A stretch of DNA of 64,000 nt from the NCBI RefSeq assembly GCF_024198255.1, contig NZ_JAJVKW010000011.1, positions 124,001 to 188,000 of the forward strand. Reading direction: 5' to 3'. The notes beneath the pieces were generated by a model. That model searched no databases and was not told the origin of the DNA. It worked only from the letters and a program-made list of their open reading frames with translations. This document shows positions 13,996-43,491 of this stretch, one piece after another (the first letter of the stretch is position 1; every line of letters begins with the position of its first letter). The DNA comes from Myxococcus guangdongensis (GTDB lineage: Bacteria > Myxococcota > Myxococcia > Myxococcales > Myxococcaceae). The translations under genes and the position numbers were made by a program.

Positions 13996-15459
13996 ATGAA
14001 GAGGAACGCCTGGAATCGCCGTGGCATCACCCTGGCGCTGGCCGCCACGCTGTCCGCGCTCGTCGGCTGCGGAGATGACGAGACGCCCGACGACCCGAAG
14101 CCGTCCACCCAGGCGAAGCTGCGCGTGGTGCACGCATCCCCGGACGCGCCCGCCGTGGACATCTACGCGGAGGGCCAGGCCACGCCACTGTTCACCAACG
14201 TGCGTTACGGCGACACCACCGCGTACGCCACGGTGCCGACGGGGACGTACAACGTGCAGGTGCGCGCGGCGGGCTCGGCGGCCACGTCCGCGCCCGTCTA
14301 CTCCACAGGTCCGCTGACGCTGACGAAGGACCAGAGCGTGAGCGCGGTGGCCGCGGGCCTGCTCACCGCCACCGACAGCGCGAGCGGCTTCCGCGTGCTG
14401 CCCCTCACCGAGGGCTTCGGCGCGCCGTCGGAGGGACGGGCGCGGGTGCGAATCGTCCACGCGGGCGCGGACGCGCCCACCGTCGCGCTGGACGTGGGTG
14501 ACGACGGCACCTCCGAAATCACCGGGCTCGCGCGCTTCCAGGACACGGGCGCCGCGGGGGTGGAGTTGCCCTCGGGACAGTCGCTCCAGGTGGGCGTGCG
14601 CACGGCCGACAACCAGAAGGTGACGTCCTTCACCGTGCCCGCCCTGCCCTCGCGCGGCGAGGTGTTCGTCATCGCCACCGGCAGGCTGTCCGAGAAGGCG
14701 CACGCTCCCGCGGGCTTCGGGTTGCTCGCGGCGGGGGTGGGCATGGTCCGCCAGAACCCCGTCGTCTACGCGCTGCACGCCTCGCCGGACGCGCCCTCCG
14801 TGGACGTCTTCGTCGGCACCACGGAGCTGGTGGATGACCTGAGCTTCGGCGAGCTGTCCGCGCCCATCCAGGTGCCGCCGGGCAGCTACAGCCTGGACTT
14901 CTTCGCCAGCGCCTCGGGCGGCACGCGCCCCTCGGGCGCTCCCGCCGCCAGCCGGCCCACGCCCGCGCTGGTGGCCGGTGAGCGCTACCTGGTCCTGGCC
15001 TCGGGCTTCCTGAGCCCGGCGGCGGATGACCCGGCGGACTCCACCTTCGAGCTGCTCGCCTTCACGGAGGGCTTCACGCGCGACACGGACAGCCTGCGGC
15101 TGCGCGTGGTGCACGCCTCGCCGGACGCGCCGGTGGTGGACGTGTCGCCGGTGGAGGGCGGAATCGTTCCGGCCGCCGCCGCCTTCGATGACATCCCGTA
15201 CCGGCTGGCCACCTCCGTGGAGGGCCGCGAGCTGCCCGGCGCCCAGCTGCTGGTGGGCGTGGCGGCGTCCAGCGCGTCCAACCGCTCGCCGGTGGCGCGG
15301 TTCCTGTTGGACACCAACGCGTTCCTGGGCCGGGGCGTCTTCGCGGTGGCCGCGGGCGCGCTGTCGCCCTCGACGTCGGGTGAGGCGGGCTTCCGGTTGG
15401 TGCTGGTGGACACGAGCACCACGCCCTGGAGCGCCCTCAACGTGCATCCGCAGCCGTAA
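13996..15459 (+). CDS. DUF4397 repeat lipoprotein
   Basis: 487 aa with a lipoprotein signal whose lipobox is LVGC (Cys at about 27). The mature part has four DUF4397 repeats of ~110 aa. Each opens with a variant of LRVVHASPDAPAVDI, at about residues 38, 150, 254 and 368; the second is degenerate (VRIVHAGADAPTV). DUF4397 is a beta-sandwich-like surface domain of unknown function, common in myxobacterial lipoproteins. A T-tailed hairpin follows within 50 bp, so the gene probably forms its own transcription unit. Confidence 0.85.
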   Translation: MKRNAWNRRGITLALAATLSALVGCGDDETPDDPKPSTQAKLRVVHASPDAPAVDIYAEGQATPLFTNVRYGDTTAYATVPTGTYNVQVRAAGSAATSAPVYSTGPLTLTKDQSVSAVAAGLLTATDSASGFRVLPLTEGFGAPSEGRARVRIVHAGADAPTVALDVGDDGTSEITGLARFQDTGAAGVELPSGQSLQVGVRTADNQKVTSFTVPALPSRGEVFVIATGRLSEKAHAPAGFGLLAAGVGMVRQNPVVYALHASPDAPSVDVFVGTTELVDDLSFGELSAPIQVPPGSYSLDFFASASGGTRPSGAPAASRPTPALVAGERYLVLASGFLSPAADDPADSTFELLAFTEGFTRDTDSLRLRVVHASPDAPVVDVSPVEGGIVPAAAAFDDIPYRLATSVEGRELPGAQLLVGVAASSASNRSPVARFLLDTNAFLGRGVFAVAAGALSPSTSGEAGFRLVLVDTSTTPWSALNVHPQP

Positions 15460-15506
15460 CGCATTTTCGCGTCACCCGTCAGCAAAGACATCCAGGCCAG
15501 CAAGCT

Positions 15507-15547
15507 GGCGCCGCGCGAGCCTCGTGCCCGCGGCGCCTGTCGTTTTT
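15507..15547 (+). terminator. Intrinsic terminator after the DUF4397 gene
   Basis: GGCGCCGCG (15507-15515) pairs perfectly with CGCGGCGCC (15529-15537) across a 13-nt interval. It is followed 6 nt later by five T residues (15543-15547). This separates the DUF4397 gene from the RCC1 gene, which starts 20 bp further on. Confidence 0.7.
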
Positions 15548-15566: not shown

Positions 15567-16784
15567 ATGAAGCGCCGCGTCGCGCCCATCCTGCTGCTCC
15601 TCACCGCGCTGACGGGCGCGTGCCTGGACCCCATCCGGAGCGCCCCGACGGACGCGTGCGTGGAGGACACCGAGGGGTGCCCGGACACGGACCCCGAGCC
15701 GCGGGGTGTGGCGCGAAAGGTGACGGTGGGGCGGCATCACGCGTGCGCGCTGCTCGAGAGCGGCGGCGTGCGGTGCTGGGGCGGCACGGGGCTGGTGGGA
15801 GACGGCACGCGCGCGCTGCGGGCCTCGGCCGTGGCGGCGAAGGGCCTGTCCACCGGCGTGCTCGGCATCTCCGCGGGCGCGGACCACACCTGCGCGGTGC
15901 TGGAGGGCGGCACCGTGCGCTGCTGGGGAGACAACGCGTCGGGTCAGCTGGGCCAGGCCTCGCTGTCGTCCTCGCTGGAGCCGCTGGATGTCGGCGGACT
16001 GGGCTCCAACGTGCTGACGGTCGCCTCGGGTGAGGCGCACACGTGCGCGCTGCACGCGGGGGGACAGGTGACGTGCTGGGGCGACAACTCACGGCTCCAA
16101 TTGGGTTCGGAGGTGAGCCAGCGGAGCCACGCGCCCATCGCGGTGCCGGGCCTGCCCGCGAACCTCACGGTGCTCGCGGCGGGCGCGTACCACACCTGCG
16201 CGGCCACCACGGCGGGCGAGGCGTGGTGCTGGGGCGACAACGCGTACGGCGGGCTGGGGGATGGGCTCGCCGGCGCGGGGCTGAAGTCTCCTCCCGTCCG
16301 GGCGCGGAGCCTGGCCCTGCCCGTGAGGGCGCTGACGGCGGGCAGGGGACACACCTGCGCGCGCGTGGGCGACGGAGCGGTGGAGTGCTGGGGCTTCAAT
16401 GCCTCGGGGGCGCTGGGGGATGACACCGCGCTCGACAGCACGGTGCCGGTGCGTCCGGTGGGGCTGAAGGTGGACATGCGTCAGGTGCGCGCGGGCACGG
16501 ACTTCACCTGCGCGCTGAGCGCCGAGGGGCGGGTGCGCTGCTGGGGCCTGAACGAGGCCGGGCAGCTCGGCGACGGGACGCGGGTGCATCGCGCGGCGCC
16601 GGTGGACGTGTCGGGGCTGGCGAACGAGGTGGTGGACCTGGCCACGGGTGTGACGAGCACGTGCACGGTGCTGAGGGATGGGCGCGCGCAGTGCTGGGGC
16701 GCCAACGCCGCCGGACAGCTGGGTGACGGGACGCAGACGGAGCGCGCCGGACCCGTCGAGGTCCAGGGGCTCGAGGCCCCTTGA
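15567..16784 (+). CDS. RCC1-repeat seven-bladed propeller lipoprotein
   Basis: 405 aa with signal peptide and lipobox LTGAC (Cys ~19). From residue ~55 there are seven RCC1/BNR-like repeats of ~50 aa, each of the form HTCAxxxxGxVxCWGxNxxGQLG. They begin near VGRHHAC, AGADHTC, SGEAHTC, AGAYHTC, AGRGHTC, AGTDFTC and TGVTSTC. Seven repeats make one closed propeller, and each blade has a Cys pair (HTC...CWG) that could form one disulfide. It is therefore likely an extracytoplasmic binding propeller. Only 12 bp separate it from the sigma factor gene, suggesting a shared transcript. Confidence 0.88.
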   Translation: MKRRVAPILLLLTALTGACLDPIRSAPTDACVEDTEGCPDTDPEPRGVARKVTVGRHHACALLESGGVRCWGGTGLVGDGTRALRASAVAAKGLSTGVLGISAGADHTCAVLEGGTVRCWGDNASGQLGQASLSSSLEPLDVGGLGSNVLTVASGEAHTCALHAGGQVTCWGDNSRLQLGSEVSQRSHAPIAVPGLPANLTVLAAGAYHTCAATTAGEAWCWGDNAYGGLGDGLAGAGLKSPPVRARSLALPVRALTAGRGHTCARVGDGAVECWGFNASGALGDDTALDSTVPVRPVGLKVDMRQVRAGTDFTCALSAEGRVRCWGLNEAGQLGDGTRVHRAAPVDVSGLANEVVDLATGVTSTCTVLRDGRAQCWGANAAGQLGDGTQTERAGPVEVQGLEAP

Positions 16785-16796
16785 GGGGAGGACGGC

Positions 16797-17483
16797 ATGT
16801 CGCTGTTGAAGGACGACCCGCGGTTGCTGCAGGCCTTCCGTCGAGGGGAGCCGGAGGCGCTCGCGCGCGTCTATCGGGCCTACTCCGCGCACGTGGCGCG
16901 GTTCCTGTCGCGCACGTACGTGTCGCATGGGCCCGGGGGACTGGGACGCGTGGGTCCGTTGGATTTGGAGGCCGCGCACCAGGAGACCTTCGTGCGTGCC
17001 TTTCGTGAGCAGGCGCGGCTCGCGTACGACGGCGTGCGTCCGTATTCGACGTGGCTCAACGCGGTGGCGAAGCAGGCGGCGGTGGACGTGCTGCGCTCGG
17101 CGGGTCGCATCGCGCGCGAGGCGGTGGCGCTGGATGACACGCCGATGGCGGAGCGGCTGGCGAGCACGTCGCCCTCTCCCGAGGACCGGGCGCTCGAGGG
17201 GGAGATGCGTGAGTTGGTGAGGCGCTTCCTCGCGGGGCTCGACGAGGGGACGCGGCGGTTGGCGGACCTGCGCTTCGTGCAGGGGTTGTCCCAGGAGCGC
17301 GCGGGGCTGCTGTTGGGGTGGTCCCGACAGGAGTTGAGGACGCGCGAGATGAAGCTGCGGCGCGCGATGACGGCGTTTCTGGTAGAGGAGGGATGGCTCG
17401 TGTCGGAGTCGCCCGAGGGTCTGCCTTCCGCCGCGGCCACGGCCGCGATGCTGGCCCTGCTCTTCCCTCTCTTCGTGCCCTGA
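16797..17483 (+). CDS. ECF-type RNA polymerase sigma factor with hydrophobic C-terminal tail
   Basis: 228 aa. Region 2 is visible at ~10-105 (ALARVYRAYSAHVARFL ... HQETFVRAF ... YSTWLNAVAKQAAVDVLR). Region 4 is at ~145-195 (LDEGTRRLADLRFVQGLSQERAGLLLGWS, then the recognition helix RQELRTREMKLRRAM). The promoter-reading fold is complete. Unusually, the protein ends in an Ala/Leu-rich stretch (AAATAAMLALLFPLFVP) long enough to enter a membrane. The next gene, 16 bp on, looks like its zinc-finger anti-sigma partner. Which genes it controls is unknown; its own cluster is the natural first guess. Confidence 0.8.
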   Translation: MSLLKDDPRLLQAFRRGEPEALARVYRAYSAHVARFLSRTYVSHGPGGLGRVGPLDLEAAHQETFVRAFREQARLAYDGVRPYSTWLNAVAKQAAVDVLRSAGRIAREAVALDDTPMAERLASTSPSPEDRALEGEMRELVRRFLAGLDEGTRRLADLRFVQGLSQERAGLLLGWSRQELRTREMKLRRAMTAFLVEEGWLVSESPEGLPSAAATAAMLALLFPLFVP

Positions 17484-17499
17484 CCCGAGTGAGTTGACC

Positions 17500-18324
17500 A
17501 TGGCCTTGTTCACTCCCCACGTGGACCGACAGCTCGTCCACCTCGCGAACGACGGCACCCTGCCTCCAAGACAGTGGAGCCGGGTGCTGAGTCATGCGCG
17601 GGGCTGCGAGCGCTGTGGCGCCCGCTATGAGCAGGTGATGAACCTGCGCCGCGTGTTCGCGCGGGACACCGTCACCGAGCCGACCTCGGGTGAGCTGGAG
17701 CGGCTGTCCGCGCACGGCTTGCAGGCGGTGCTGGGGGCGCTGGAGGAGCGGCGTGAGTGCTCGGAGTCAGAGGACGAGACGAAGGGTCCTTGGGCGCGAG
17801 TGGTGGAGTGGGTGCGCGGGGCGTGGGACCCGCCGTCGCTCGGGCACGTGGGCACGGCGTGGGTGCTGGCGTTGATGGTGTCCGCCGGAGTGCTGTGGAC
17901 GGGCGCTTCTGAAGACACGGGAGAGTGGGCGGCACGCGGCGAGGGCCCTGGCACCGCGGTGCTGCGATTGTTCTGCGTGCCCTCGGACGCGGAGCTGCGT
18001 GAGGTGCGCGGACAGGGCACGTGTCCTTCGGGGGCATCGCTCGCGTTCGCGGCAGGCGTGCGGGCGCCGTACACGCATGTCGCGGTGGTGGTGCGTACGG
18101 AGCAGGGCTCGCGTGTGGAGGGACCATTCGAAGTGAAGGCGGCTCCGGGCTCGGAGGTCGCGCTGGACATCACGCCTCGGCTGCCCGAGGCGGGCGAGGT
18201 GGAGCTCACCGCGGTCTTCGCGTCGAGCGCGAGCGTCGCGCTCTCAGCCGCGCGCGGAGAGACGGTGCAAGGCGAAGTGGTCCAGGTGCGGCATCGGATT
18301 CAAGTGGGGGGCGGCACGCCATGA
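17500..18324 (+). CDS. Putative anti-sigma factor, single-pass membrane protein with HxxxCxxC motif
   Basis: 274 aa from ATG 17500; an in-frame TTG two codons upstream is the weaker choice. The N-terminus carries HARGCERCGARY (~30-41), the H-x3-C-x2-C zinc site of ZAS-type anti-sigma domains. One membrane helix follows at ~117-140 (TAWVLALMVSAGVLW). The periplasmic part (~145-274) is strand-rich, like a small sandwich, with two Cys near its start. Position directly after an ECF sigma gene supports the anti-sigma role. Its stop overlaps the start of the caspase-like gene (ATGA), indicating coupled translation. Confidence 0.7.
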   Translation: MALFTPHVDRQLVHLANDGTLPPRQWSRVLSHARGCERCGARYEQVMNLRRVFARDTVTEPTSGELERLSAHGLQAVLGALEERRECSESEDETKGPWARVVEWVRGAWDPPSLGHVGTAWVLALMVSAGVLWTGASEDTGEWAARGEGPGTAVLRLFCVPSDAELREVRGQGTCPSGASLAFAAGVRAPYTHVAVVVRTEQGSRVEGPFEVKAAPGSEVALDITPRLPEAGEVELTAVFASSASVALSAARGETVQGEVVQVRHRIQVGGGTP

Positions 18325-20072
18325 GGCACGGGTTGAAACGGGGGCACCACCCCATCCTCGCGCAACTGTGCGTCGTGCTGCTCCTGTGCACGGCGCCCCG
18401 GAGCGCCGCCCAGGCCGAGAATCCGGCCTCATCGGAGCCATCCCCCGTGCGGCGCGCGCTGGTCGTCGCGTACAACGGAAGCGACGCGCCAGGCATGCCG
18501 CCGCTGCGCTACGCGGATGACGACGGCGTGCGCTGGGCCGAGACGCTGCGTCGACTCGGCGTGGACGTGGTCCTGCTCACCGTCCCCGATGCCGAGACCG
18601 CCCAGGCCGAGCGCGAGCGACTCGCCGACGCTCGCCTCCCCACGCTCACGGTGCTCGATGAGACCGTGGACCAGCTCGCGCGTCGCAACGCCGTGGACCG
18701 CGCCGCCGGGCGCACCGTGGACTTCCTCTTCGTCTACGTGGGCCATGGACGCACCGGTGAGTCGGGCCGCGCCTACCTCACGCTCGCCGACGGGCAGCTC
18801 GACCAGGAGGGCCTCTACTCGCGCGTGGTGGAGAAGCTCGACGCGGACTACGTGCACCTGCTCGTCGACGCGTGTCACGCGGCGGGCGTCGTCGGCAGTC
18901 GCGGTGGAGACCCGCTCGTGCTGCGCAGGCTTCGACGCGCGTTGGAACAGGAACAACTCGCCGGCCACCCCCGCGTGGGCGCCATCTTCGCGGAGAGCAC
19001 CGAAGGCGAGACACACGAGTGGTCCCGCATCCGCGCGGGTGTCTTCAGTCACGCGGCGCGCTCCGCGCTGCTCGGCGGCGCGGACGTCAACGGGGATGGC
19101 CGCGTCGAGTACAGCGAGCTGGACGCCTTCGTCGCCGCCGCCATCCGCGGCGTGAAGTCCCCTCAAGCCCGGCTCGCCGTGCGCACCTTCCCTCCCGCCC
19201 TCAGCCCCTCACGAGCCCTCGTCGGCCCCGCCCCGGACGGCCCTCGCCTGGACCTCCCCCCTGCCCCCCGAGGCGCGCGCATCTCCGTGGAGGACACCTC
19301 GGGCGTGCGGCTCGTGGACGCACACCAGGCCGCCGGAGAGCCCCTGACCCTCGCGTTGCCGGAGCGCGCGGCGTACTGGCTGCGCACGCCCGGCGGCGAG
19401 GCGCGTGTCCGTCGCTCGGACCTCGGGTCCGGAGAGCTCCCGTCCGTCGCCCCACCCGAGGTCGCCTCTCGCGGCGCCGCCGAGGAGAGCCTGCTCCAGG
19501 GTCTCTTCGCCCTGCCCTTCGGCCGCGACTTCTACGAGGGCTATGTCGCCTCCACCGGAGTGCCCGCCGTCGACTTCTCCAACCCCCTCTCCCCAGGCGA
19601 ACCCTCCGGCGTCCCGCGCGCACTGGGCCTCGAAGTGGGGCTCACGCTGGGCGCGCCGTCCCTGGGAGGACGCGGTGTCGCGCGCGGACTCGCCCTGTCC
19701 TGGCGCGTCCCCGGTCCCGGCCCCGTCCGGGTCGGCGCGCGCGCCACCTACGCGCTGGCACCCGACGCCTGGGTGGACGACGCCACGCTCCAGCGCATGT
19801 CCGTGCTCGCGATGGCGGGCCTGGGCGGCCGAGGCACCCTGGCCCCCTTCGCCGAGGTGGGCGCGGGCTGGCTGATGACCGTGGTGGACCGACCGGGCCG
19901 CCGAGAAGGTGACGCCCTGGGCCTGTCCGCGCGCGCCGCCGCGGGCCTCCGATGGAAGACGGGCGACTTCGCGCTGAGGGGCACGCTGGGGCTGGATTGG
20001 GACTCGGTCCGCGTGGACGGACAACGGCGGGGACAGTGGATGCCCGGCGTCGAGCTGGGCCTGGAGCGCTGA
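18321..20072 (+). CDS. Caspase-like (C14) protein with EF-hand and putative C-terminal beta-barrel, exported
   Basis: 583 aa from ATG 18321, overlapping the previous stop by 4 bp. A signal peptide covers ~1-31. Residues ~42-290 are a caspase-like domain with the catalytic dyad His142 (YVGHGRTGESG) and Cys185 (LLVDACHAAG), and the early Asp triplet YADDDGV. Inside this part, DVNGDGRVEYSEL (~255-267) is a canonical EF-hand calcium loop. The last ~200 residues alternate hydrophobic strands (LGLEVGLTLG, GLALSWRVPG, VRVGARATYAL, FAEVGAGWLM, FALRGTLGLDW, MPGVELGLER), resembling an outer-membrane barrel. This would be a calcium-sensitive envelope protease-like protein; activity is not proven. It is the last gene of the unit with the sigma and anti-sigma genes. 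Confidence 0.8.
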   Translation: MRHGLKRGHHPILAQLCVVLLLCTAPRSAAQAENPASSEPSPVRRALVVAYNGSDAPGMPPLRYADDDGVRWAETLRRLGVDVVLLTVPDAETAQAERERLADARLPTLTVLDETVDQLARRNAVDRAAGRTVDFLFVYVGHGRTGESGRAYLTLADGQLDQEGLYSRVVEKLDADYVHLLVDACHAAGVVGSRGGDPLVLRRLRRALEQEQLAGHPRVGAIFAESTEGETHEWSRIRAGVFSHAARSALLGGADVNGDGRVEYSELDAFVAAAIRGVKSPQARLAVRTFPPALSPSRALVGPAPDGPRLDLPPAPRGARISVEDTSGVRLVDAHQAAGEPLTLALPERAAYWLRTPGGEARVRRSDLGSGELPSVAPPEVASRGAAEESLLQGLFALPFGRDFYEGYVASTGVPAVDFSNPLSPGEPSGVPRALGLEVGLTLGAPSLGGRGVARGLALSWRVPGPGPVRVGARATYALAPDAWVDDATLQRMSVLAMAGLGGRGTLAPFAEVGAGWLMTVVDRPGRREGDALGLSARAAAGLRWKTGDFALRGTLGLDWDSVRVDGQRRGQWMPGVELGLER

Positions 20073-41604: not shown

Positions 41605-43491
41605 TCAGAGGAAGAGGTTCTCCGGGTTCGGCACCACGGTCTGGATGACGTAGCCATCCGAACCATTGCCGGGGTTGATGGGGGTCGTGGTGTTTCCGCC
41701 ACCTCCCGAGCCACCCGCGCCGCCCATCGCACCACCACCACCACCCGCCTGGATGGCGGCGCTGGCGCCAGTGGGAGCAGCCGTCGTCCCAGGCGCACCG
41801 CCCGTCACCACGAGGCCACCGCTGACGGTGGGCGACACCGAGGAGACGACCTGGATGATGCCGCCGCCGCCACCGCCACCGCCGCCCTTGCCCGCGCCGC
41901 CCAGGTTGTTGCCGTTCACGCCGTTGCCGCCCTGCGCGCGGACGAAGCCCTGCACCGTCACGCCGGCCTTGCCGAGGATGACCACCACGCCACCCGCGCC
42001 ACCGCCAGCGCCGGGGGTGTTGTCGATGACATTCCCGCCCGACGCGCCCGAGGCGTTGATGGCGCCCGTGGCCTGGATGCGCACGGTCCCCTGGGACAGG
42101 ATGACCAGCGAGCCACCGCCGCCGCTGAAGGGCCCCGCCGCGCTGCGCGCGCCCGAACCGCCGCCCTTGTTGCCGGGCCGCAAGAGCTGCGCCGCGTGGA
42201 CGGGCGAGACGCCGAGCCCACCCGCGGGCTCACCCGCCGGAGCGCGGGACAGGCCCGAATCCGCCCCACCCGGGCCCGTGTCCAACGAGCCCGGGTCGAC
42301 GATGACGGTGCCGCTGATGGTGACGTCCCCCGTGGCCCGGACGACGGTGCCGCTCGGGACGATGAGCGTGCCGGTGATGTTGACGGTGGTGAACTGCATG
42401 TGGTGCCGCCCCGTGAGGGAGGAGAAGCCACTCGCCGTGGTCAGGTCGACCGTGCTCGAGACGGAGAACGCGCCCGCCGAGCCATCACCGAACACGCCCG
42501 TCGAGCCCGCCGGGCCCTGAGGCCCCGTGGCGCCCGTCGCGCCCGTGGCCCCCGTCGCTCCGGTGGCGCCCACCGGCCCCTGCGCGCCCGTGGCACCCGT
42601 GGCGCCCGTGGCGCCGGGCTGGCCCTGCGGACCCTGGGGCCCGTTGCACACGTAGCGCGTCAGCGCCGCGTTGACCTCGCCCGCGTCCAGCACGCCGTTG
42701 CCATTGCCGTCCTGGCCGAACTGCAGCCGCACGCCGCCCGTCGCGCAGTTGGCGCCCGTGGGCTCGGCGGCCGTGGCCGCGACCGAGTGGATGCCCGCGG
42801 CGCCCTGCGGACCCGTCTCGCCGCGCAGGCCCTGCGGCCCCTGGGGACCCTGCACCCCCGTCTCACCGCGCACGCCCTGCTCGCCGCGCGGACCCGTCTC
42901 GCCCTGCGGGCCGATGGGGCCCACGGCGCCGGTCTCACCCCGTACGCCCTGCTCACCGCGAGGACCCGTCTCACCTTGAGGTCCCACGGGGCCCTGCGGG
43001 CCCGTCTCACCGCGCGCGCCCTGCGGACCCTGGGGGCCGTTGCACACGTAGCGGGTGGCATCCACCTCGTCTTCGTCCAGCGTCCCATCGCTGTCGTCGT
43101 CGACGCCGGTCTCGATTTTCACGCCGCTCGTCGCACAGTTGGCTCCCGCGGCCTCCACGGACGTGCGGGCCAACGAGCGCTTGCCCTCGGGACCTTGGGG
43201 ACCCACGGGACCACCGGCGGGGCCCTGGGGACCCTCTGGACCTTGCGGACCCACCGGGCCGACGTTGCCCGTGTCGCCCTTCGGACCCACCTCACCCTGC
43301 GCGCCCGCGGGCCCCTGCCCCCCCGCGGGTCCCTGCTCACCGGCTGGCCCCGCGGGACCTTGCGGCCCCTGCGGCCCCTGTGGCCCCTGCTGACCTTCGT
43401 CACATCCGGTCAACGACAACATCGCCACCACAGGTAGAGCCGTCAGCCACCGCGACCAGGTCGCGGCGCCTTGCCATTTCATCTGAGCCAT
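41605..43491 (-). CDS. Collagen-like repeat lipoprotein
   Basis: 628 aa; lipobox LTGC (Cys ~26) after a signal peptide. Collagen-like Gly-X-Y tracts ([11 protein letters not shown] type) alternate with two copies of a ~40-residue module: [28 protein letters not shown] and [28 protein letters not shown]. Each ends in TRYVCNG and contains an Asp-rich calcium-loop-like segment. A third Gly-X-Y tract ([16 protein letters not shown]) follows. The C-terminal ~280 residues start [12 protein letters not shown], run as short repeated strands and become very Gly-rich. It is probably a surface filament or matrix component. The DNA repeats make it prone to length change. Confidence 0.88.

Follow-up and report, generated by a model that had tools for sequence, protein, structure and literature searches.

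Comparative analysis of a four-gene unit of Myxococcus guangdongensis (forward strand, positions 15567-20072 of a 64,000-nucleotide stretch that was analysed as a whole and is hereafter called the window) makes it moderately probable that an exported caspase homologue serves as the site-1 protease of its own anti-sigma factor in an extracytoplasmic function (ECF) sigma pathway. The unit encodes an RCC1-repeat protein, an ECF sigma factor, a membrane anti-sigma factor, and the caspase homologue, which ends in a barrel. The proposal is based on a short linear motif with a basic residue in the juxtamembrane region of the anti-sigma factors; no report of this motif as a caspase substrate was found, and it appears to be the main new observation of the analysis. 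A wider proposal, to which we give a little less than even credence, is that in multiply duplicated units found across the phylum an exported caspase with a calcium loop would be a dedicated site-1 protease with a MALT1-like site, and that in the present clade, with its barrel-tethered caspase and tailed sigma factor, the unit would sense across the periplasm what condition the envelope is in. An initial annotation had described the genes as an envelope-sensing pathway that ends in a peptidase; its observations were confirmed and its interpretation was partly supported, in that the envelope-facing arrangement stands, whereas the juxtamembrane motif favours action of the peptidase on the anti-sigma factor.

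The host genome (11.2 Mb) falls within the genus that holds Myxococcus, and 27 genomes of this genus, including its own, were compared. A close orthologue of the caspase was present in 11 of them (76-95% identity in the 10 relatives) and a nearly full-length match at about 50% in 26. Flanking regions were read at 40 loci chosen from the genus matches and at 43 further loci; removal of duplicates left 72 distinct caspases, eight of which were dropped for a short flank, resulting in 64 loci with at least 2.2 kb of upstream sequence. A sigma factor of the ECF kind was detected nearby by profile in 61 of the 64, and hence the lack of co-occurrence in relatives that the initial annotation had named as fatal to its reading was not encountered; of the remaining three, L068 and L113 carry a gene that BLAST shows to be sigma-like. 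A called membrane anti-sigma with a zinc motif adjoins the sigma factor in 50 loci, and the sigma gene is divergent from the caspase gene in eight. Among 56 trios, distance matrices were correlated at 0.97 for sigma and caspase, 0.96 for sigma and anti-sigma, and 0.95 for anti-sigma and caspase, values that were reached by none of 2000 permutations for any pair. This linkage, together with the distance correlations, indicates that the unit of inheritance is the trio of ECF sigma factor, zinc-motif membrane anti-sigma, and exported caspase homologue. On a larger scale, the caspase domain was matched at an E-value of 1e-5 or better in 141 of 195 Myxococcota genomes (117 of the 149 good ones), with up to 10 matches in a single genome, and the genome of the window itself contains at least six sigma/anti-sigma/caspase units. 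No plasmid-borne relatives were found by tblastn. Caspase relatives broken by several stops and frame changes were observed in two genomes of the comparison (G007 contig C1, about 4704307-4705643; G013 contig C1, about 7114725-7116139), and units are therefore being lost in some species.

The anti-sigma gene (17500..18324, 274 amino acids; this and all other features of the unit are on the forward strand) follows the sigma gene after a gap of 16 bp. No curated cut-off was reached by its product (TIGR03988, 13.6 bits versus 62.5; no match to Pfam zinc-finger models), which can be recognised as a probable anti-sigma by the HxxxCxxC motif of ZAS proteins and a single membrane segment, encoded directly after a sigma factor. 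The zinc motif reads HARGCERC (17593..17616, residues 32-39), and its residues H32, C36, and C39 are invariant in an alignment of 28 anti-sigmas with identities down to 18% to the window protein. A structure model places an N-terminal helical domain with this motif before a transmembrane helix (17851..17901, residues 118-134, also indicated by hydropathy), a linker, and an extracytoplasmic immunoglobulin (Ig)-like sandwich (17950..18312, residues 151-271) that has invariant cysteines at 159 and 175 and whose best VIA match is filamin C, with a middling score (Z 8.8, 93 aligned residues, root-mean-square deviation (rmsd) 2.6). The predicted local distance difference test score (pLDDT) is below 50 in the linker (135-148) and mostly 89-97 in the blocks from residue 151. 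Binding and inhibition of the neighbouring sigma factor are putative and are suggested by the position after the sigma gene and the distance correlation. The proposed cut site, W143-A-A-R146-G147 (17926..17940), is located in the juxtamembrane linker, and its R146 is one of the ten invariant columns of the alignment (28/28).

The motif (W/F/L/V)xxR(G/S/M), scored in a 30-residue stretch at the membrane end, was found in all 55 trio anti-sigmas with a zinc motif; adding those in which no zinc motif was called gives 58 of 60, the two exceptions reading MVARG and FGVKG. Zinc-motif membrane anti-sigmas beside other ECF sigma factors of the same genome were used as controls, and 4 of 17 contained the motif before cleaning (Fisher p 3e-11, which is indicative only, as the sequences are related). 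Four control loci (L140, L148, and L157 with the zinc motif and L150 without it) hold a distant caspase directly after the anti-sigma gene, and their anti-sigmas read LAVKG, NRLKG, VRVRG, and YATKG. The three with a zinc motif were removed, a step that favours our proposal, and 14 controls remained, in which the loose motif occurred three times. The tighter form (W/F)xxR(G/S) was present in 48 of the 55 trio anti-sigmas versus none of the 14 cleaned controls, and Arg followed by G/S/M alone in 55 versus seven. As the motif had been defined on the first set, 40 loci of other genera were also examined, which yielded 34 anti-sigmas, four of them already in the first set; the expression, fixed beforehand, matched 25 of the 30 new sequences (shuffled expectation 10%) and, with Lys allowed, 29 (12% after shuffling), the last one reading WTVRD. 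Nine additional loci read from raw frames (including L064, already in the first set as a short gene call) all have a basic residue at the site, in two cases as YRIKG and IRLKG. When all 102 non-identical anti-sigmas were pooled, part of which were read by eye, 94 had Arg and eight had Lys at the site. A tally of 100 entries, including four repeats and two in which the script took a neighbouring Arg, gave F 51, W 32, L 9, V 5, and others 3 at P4; A 46, P 16, V 14, and S 14 at P2; and G 85 and S 10 at P1'.

The caspase gene (18321..20072, 583 amino acids) overlaps the anti-sigma gene by ATGA. A model of its product was built on 34 sequences (mean pLDDT 84.8, predicted template modelling score 0.67). 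The caspase domain (18441..19145, residues 41-275) reached the Peptidase_C14 cut-off exactly (21.4 bits) and remained below the curated cut-off of the EACC1-associated caspase family NF047832 (23.7 bits versus 140). In the model, residues 42-307 resemble Arabidopsis metacaspase 4 (6w8r; VIA Z 17.5, 226 aligned, rmsd 3.7), with legumains tied. The exported caspase-like domain and the two catalytic residues named in the initial annotation, His142 (18744-18746) and Cys185 (18873-18875), were borne out, both residues being invariant in 40 of 40 caspases of a first set and in 40 of 40 of a phylum sample, five loci of which repeat earlier ones. Asp183 (18867-18869), two residues before the Cys, and Asp68 (18522-18524) are likewise present in all 40 members of the phylum sample. 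With a His/Cys dyad in a modelled caspase fold, the protein is a predicted member of family C14B.

Within the domain, a canonical 12-residue EF-hand loop, DVNGDGRVEYSE (19083..19118, residues 255-266), is placed by the model between helices 241-253 and 264-275; calcium binding is putative. The EF-hand of the initial annotation is supported as a loop sequence; the EF-hand_5 profile scored below its Pfam cut-off (14.6 bits versus 25.9). The loop is a family-wide feature, with Asp at position 1, Asn/Asp at 3, Asp/Asn at 5, and Glu at 12 in 40 of 40 caspases of the phylum sample. The barrel-like strands reported for the C-terminus correspond in the model to an eight-stranded OmpA/NspA-like barrel (19608..20069, residues 430-583), with strands between 436 and 582, pLDDT 84-97 from residue 441 on and 73 at 431-440, and a match to NspA (1p4t; VIA Z 18.2, 149 aligned, rmsd 2.5); insertion in the outer membrane is predicted. 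A non-barrel model, which the initial annotation had named as a second refutation, was thus not obtained. OmpA-like barrels have both ends facing the periplasm, and the caspase domain would therefore lie in the periplasm. Seven relatives (L051-L055, L059, and L061) are shorter and have only 27-45 residues beyond position 400, which would not suffice for this barrel.

The specificity expected of such an enzyme agrees with the motif. C14B enzymes cut after Arg or Lys (PMC4357240, PMC6426788; here and below, statements on published work refer to the available portions of the sources), and the S1 residues of the C14B enzyme TbMCA2 include Asp95 and Asp211 (PMC4357240). The window protein has an Asp two residues before its Cys, as in Arg/Lys-specific relatives, and Arg or Lys is expected at P1. 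Asp183 and Asp68 were likened to Asp211 and Asp95 of TbMCA2 by pattern and not by superposition; among solved structures, only EF-hand proteins were matched by the full-length profile at E 0.01. Known MALT1 sites include LVSR|GAA, LQPR|GPL, FMSR|GVG, LVPR|GGS, and FKSK|GNY, and among 14 sites compiled from the same source, 10 have L/F/M at P4, 13 have Arg and one has Lys at P1, and nine are followed by Gly (PMC6237847). The present caspase would thus share with MALT1 and metacaspases the fold, the expected P1 Arg/Lys, and the layout of the site, and differs in being exported and in having an EF-hand loop in the small-subunit region and a barrel; its activity is predicted. MALT1 caspase-Ig3 chains also rank high in Foldseek (8v4x, E 1.7e-7), but at an rmsd of 15-26 a shared domain arrangement is not supported. 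When a linear motif is conserved within a linker predicted to be flexible, and an enzyme expected to cut there is encoded next to it, the motif is best read as the cut site of that enzyme.

According to the mechanism proposed here, a signal at the envelope would activate the caspase (guesses at this signal are calcium, faulty assembly of the barrel, and the adjoining surface protein), which would cut the anti-sigma after R146 (bond R146-G147). An M50 site-2 protease, several matches of which are present in the genome, and cytoplasmic proteases would complete the degradation of the anti-sigma, and the released sigma factor would transcribe its own unit and perhaps other genes. The role of bacterial caspase homologues has long been open and has often been framed as cell death. 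With R146-G147, a concrete substrate and a named bond are proposed for a large set of them, and if the proposal is true, caspase-type proteolysis would be linked to envelope transcription control, suggesting that bacterial caspases could turn genes on from outside the cytoplasm.

Several observations weigh against this mechanism. The barrel would fix the caspase at the outer membrane, and the anti-sigma is in the inner membrane, which raises a problem of reach unless the linkers span the periplasm or an unassembled form acts. P2 is mostly Ala here, whereas MALT1 prefers Ser/Pro at this position (PMC6237847; see also PMC10531186). The initial definition of the motif came from the very set that had revealed it, whose members are related, and wherever several basic residues are clustered the choice among them was made by eye; Arg with G/S/M is common in the controls, where the longer form also still occurs (7 and 3 of 14, as given above). 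The equivalence of Asp68 with Asp95 is one of pattern only, and a caspase-only profile matched solved metacaspase-like chains weakly (GSU0716, E 0.07). In addition, some caspases lack a recognised sigma or anti-sigma factor: L049 (G008 contig C1, about 9938004) has a full-length barrel-type caspase with an anti-sigma fragment only and no sigma factor found upstream, and looks like a decaying unit; L187 and L197 encode family caspases without a recognisable sigma or anti-sigma factor in about 3 kb of upstream sequence; and the reading of raw frames gave no matching anti-sigma for the second unit of L106, nor any for L049.

An alternative that we regard as unlikely is that the caspase is the output of the pathway and not its trigger, the sigma factor inducing an envelope protease whose task would be to process surface proteins, e.g., the RCC1 protein, or to take part in cell death, and a general site-1 protease cutting the anti-sigma. 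In its favour, surface lipoproteins are encoded within the same units, the sigma gene is divergent from the caspase gene in 8 of the 64 loci, and a role in cell death was suggested in 2012 (PMC3501461). This alternative, however, leaves the basic motif linked to caspases unexplained, other zinc-motif anti-sigmas having the loose form in 3 of 14 cases and the tight form in none. Quite improbable, in our estimation, is an uncut Arg-Gly motif that serves as a structural or interaction site, e.g., for docking or for setting the topology where the sandwich begins. Such a role would agree with Arg plus G/S/M near the membrane in seven of the 14 clean controls and with a second basic column, R156, which is nearly invariant (27/28) and lies within a strand, but the motif lies in a linker of low model confidence, is retained where the following domain differs greatly, has Lys in place of Arg in some lineages, and is laid out like sites known for a caspase relative with Arg specificity. 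The site-1 protease proposal also has a special form, in which the caspase-barrel would be a sensor of outer-membrane assembly and only a failure of barrel insertion would leave the caspase free in the periplasm to reach the anti-sigma. The modelled OmpA-like barrel and the presence, within the unit, of a target in the inner membrane speak for this form, which we regard as very improbable; against it, the seven caspases too short for a barrel are accompanied by anti-sigmas with the same motif.

In pathways of the DegS/RseP-RseA-RpoE type, a membrane anti-sigma is cut first in its extracytoplasmic linker and then by an M50 protease. The present unit has in common with them a membrane anti-sigma with an extracytoplasmic linker as the region of the first cut, and differs in that the proposed first protease is a cysteine peptidase of the caspase fold encoded within the same unit; anti-sigma pathways controlled by proteolysis have been summarised previously (PMC10028731). 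In type III-E CRISPR, Csx29 cuts Csx30, an inhibitor of the ECF-type CASP-sigma (PMC10028731), which shows that control of an ECF-type sigma factor through cleavage of its inhibitor is within the reach of a caspase-like protease. As proposed here, the inhibition of an adjoining sigma factor is relieved in that system; however, Csx29 is triggered by RNA and is part of a CRISPR complex, whereas the present caspase is exported and its anti-sigma is a membrane protein with a zinc motif. The orthocaspase MaOC1 cuts the antitoxin of an adjoining toxin-antitoxin pair, at sites that could not be determined (PMC7935541), and is thus another bacterial caspase homologue that acts on a neighbouring regulator, with an antitoxin as substrate. 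In addition, CHAT-domain proteins near ECF54 sigma factors without an anti-sigma were mentioned in a 2022 review (PMC8999054).

Operons of the present kind are not new. Asplund-Samuelsson et al. reported in 2012 that four of the five metacaspase operons of M. xanthus contain sigma-70 genes, and that sigma-caspase operons also occur in Anaeromyxobacter, Haliangium, Sorangium, Ralstonia, and Fibrobacter (PMC3501461); the cleavage proposed here, if true, would explain them. A word search of the main text of that report gave no mention of anti-sigma, RCC1, EF-hand, barrel, or zinc finger, and no substrate is proposed there. Archaeal orthocaspases with EF-hand motifs are also already in print (PMC6426788), and the initial annotation, which was aware of no earlier account of such a combination, is to be corrected on these two points. 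Literature naming a membrane anti-sigma as the substrate of a caspase homologue was not found in a search conducted mostly without subscription papers.

The sigma gene (16797..17483, 228 amino acids) starts 12 bp after the RCC1 gene, and its product is, by profile, a predicted ECF sigma factor: it passed the cut-offs of TIGR02937 (60.8 bits versus 42.9) and Sigma70_ECF PF07638 (23.1 versus 21.1), and the separate Pfam models of regions 2 and 4 scored below theirs. The hydrophobic C-terminal tail (17427..17480, about residues 211-228, by hydropathy), which had been called unusual, is so: on the basis of the best 15-residue hydropathy within the last 25 residues (threshold about 1.40 or more), such a tail was found in 37 of 38 sigma factors of the barrel-type clade (exception, L099), in 2 of 29 other trio sigmas, and in 1 of the genome's 48 other ECF sigmas (among these 48, four likewise adjoin a distant caspase). 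Membership of the barrel-type clade was decided from the similarity and the length of the caspases, the window caspase being the only one modelled. A guess is that the tail may tether the sigma factor to the membrane.

In 18 of 25 paralogous units, CGACC-N18-CGTAT was found with fixed spacing at a distance of 36-103 bases from the called start of the sigma gene, on its upstream side (expectation per shuffled sequence, 0.002; the alignment from which the pattern was derived included part of these loci). The element has the appearance of an ECF promoter, which would be consistent with autoregulation; it is not present in the window. The intergenic region between divergent sigma and caspase genes was inspected by eye at L051-L055, L102, L103, L107, L166, L167, L170, L171, and L200-L202, and many of these regions contain a GGTGGATCG-like stretch, ATGGCA some bases on, and CCGTCA nearer the sigma gene, which together represent a possible divergent promoter region.

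The layout of the four genes of the window agrees with the initial annotation in coordinates, in both gaps, and in the overlap, and this spacing is compatible with one predicted operon. Upstream of the RCC1 gene, the terminator noted there consists of an inverted repeat with a 9-bp stem (15507-15515/15529-15537) and a TTTTT run after it (15507..15547); outside the window, this hairpin is clear by eye in the nearest relative, L031, alone. A terminator scanner gave two weaker forms upstream of the RCC1 gene, at 15524 and 15530, and five terminator-like sites in 8.5 kb versus 2.0 expected. A candidate ECF-type promoter, AAC-N16-CGT (15458..15479), begins at the stop codon of a DUF4397 gene and is found with equal position and spacing, by eye, in the window and in seven of nine aligned orthologues (not in L036 and L040). 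Its conservation is moderate evidence for a promoter because the orthologues are closely related, and since it lies upstream of the hairpin, either the hairpin sits in the leader or the element is not a promoter. A scan of the locus for sigma-70 promoters gave none. The DUF4397 gene (13996-15459, forward strand) has the same position in 9 of the 10 orthologous loci read; at L034 the contig end is reached, and at L035 the gene is called short. A defence-system reading was dropped, as no family of the PADLOC defence library, including type III-E CRISPR, was matched by the four proteins at E 0.1.

The RCC1-repeat propeller protein (15567..16784, 405 amino acids; WD40_RLD, E 6e-62; RCC1_2, E 4e-54) is exported and has a Cys after its signal segment in a poor lipobox. 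It had been counted as part of the unit and was dropped from the core, as it is a clade-specific addition present in 12 of the 64 loci, always as the third gene upstream of the caspase; it is one of several surface repeat proteins that accompany the trio. Partners in other units include DUF7151 with a receptor-L/leucine-rich domain, FG-GAP with fn3, RCC1 with cadherin, Ig-like, and beta-helix proteins; 10 such surface proteins were scanned, two without a Pfam match and one with a match below its cut-off.

The genome of the window (G000) contains several paralogues of the trio. At L042 (contig C3, about 460695-462368 and downstream), a paralogous trio is followed by two tandem DUF7151 lipoproteins that carry receptor-L/leucine-rich domains, and in other species, too, the paralogue is followed by similar tandem lipoproteins. 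The genome has another four sigma/anti-sigma/caspase operons, at L140, L148, L150, and L157 (contigs C6, C1, C7, and C13), in which the genes overlap by 4 bases; their more distant caspases have DSCRSGA, DACHSGA, and DACKSGG, with a juxtamembrane site that is mostly Lys-Gly. The GHG string was not found by pattern in L140, which is cut by the locus end, and L148. A collagen-like lipoprotein with GPQGPQ repeats is also encoded in the window (41605-43431, reverse strand) and is partly similar, at 25-48% identity, to the lipoproteins of paralogous units.

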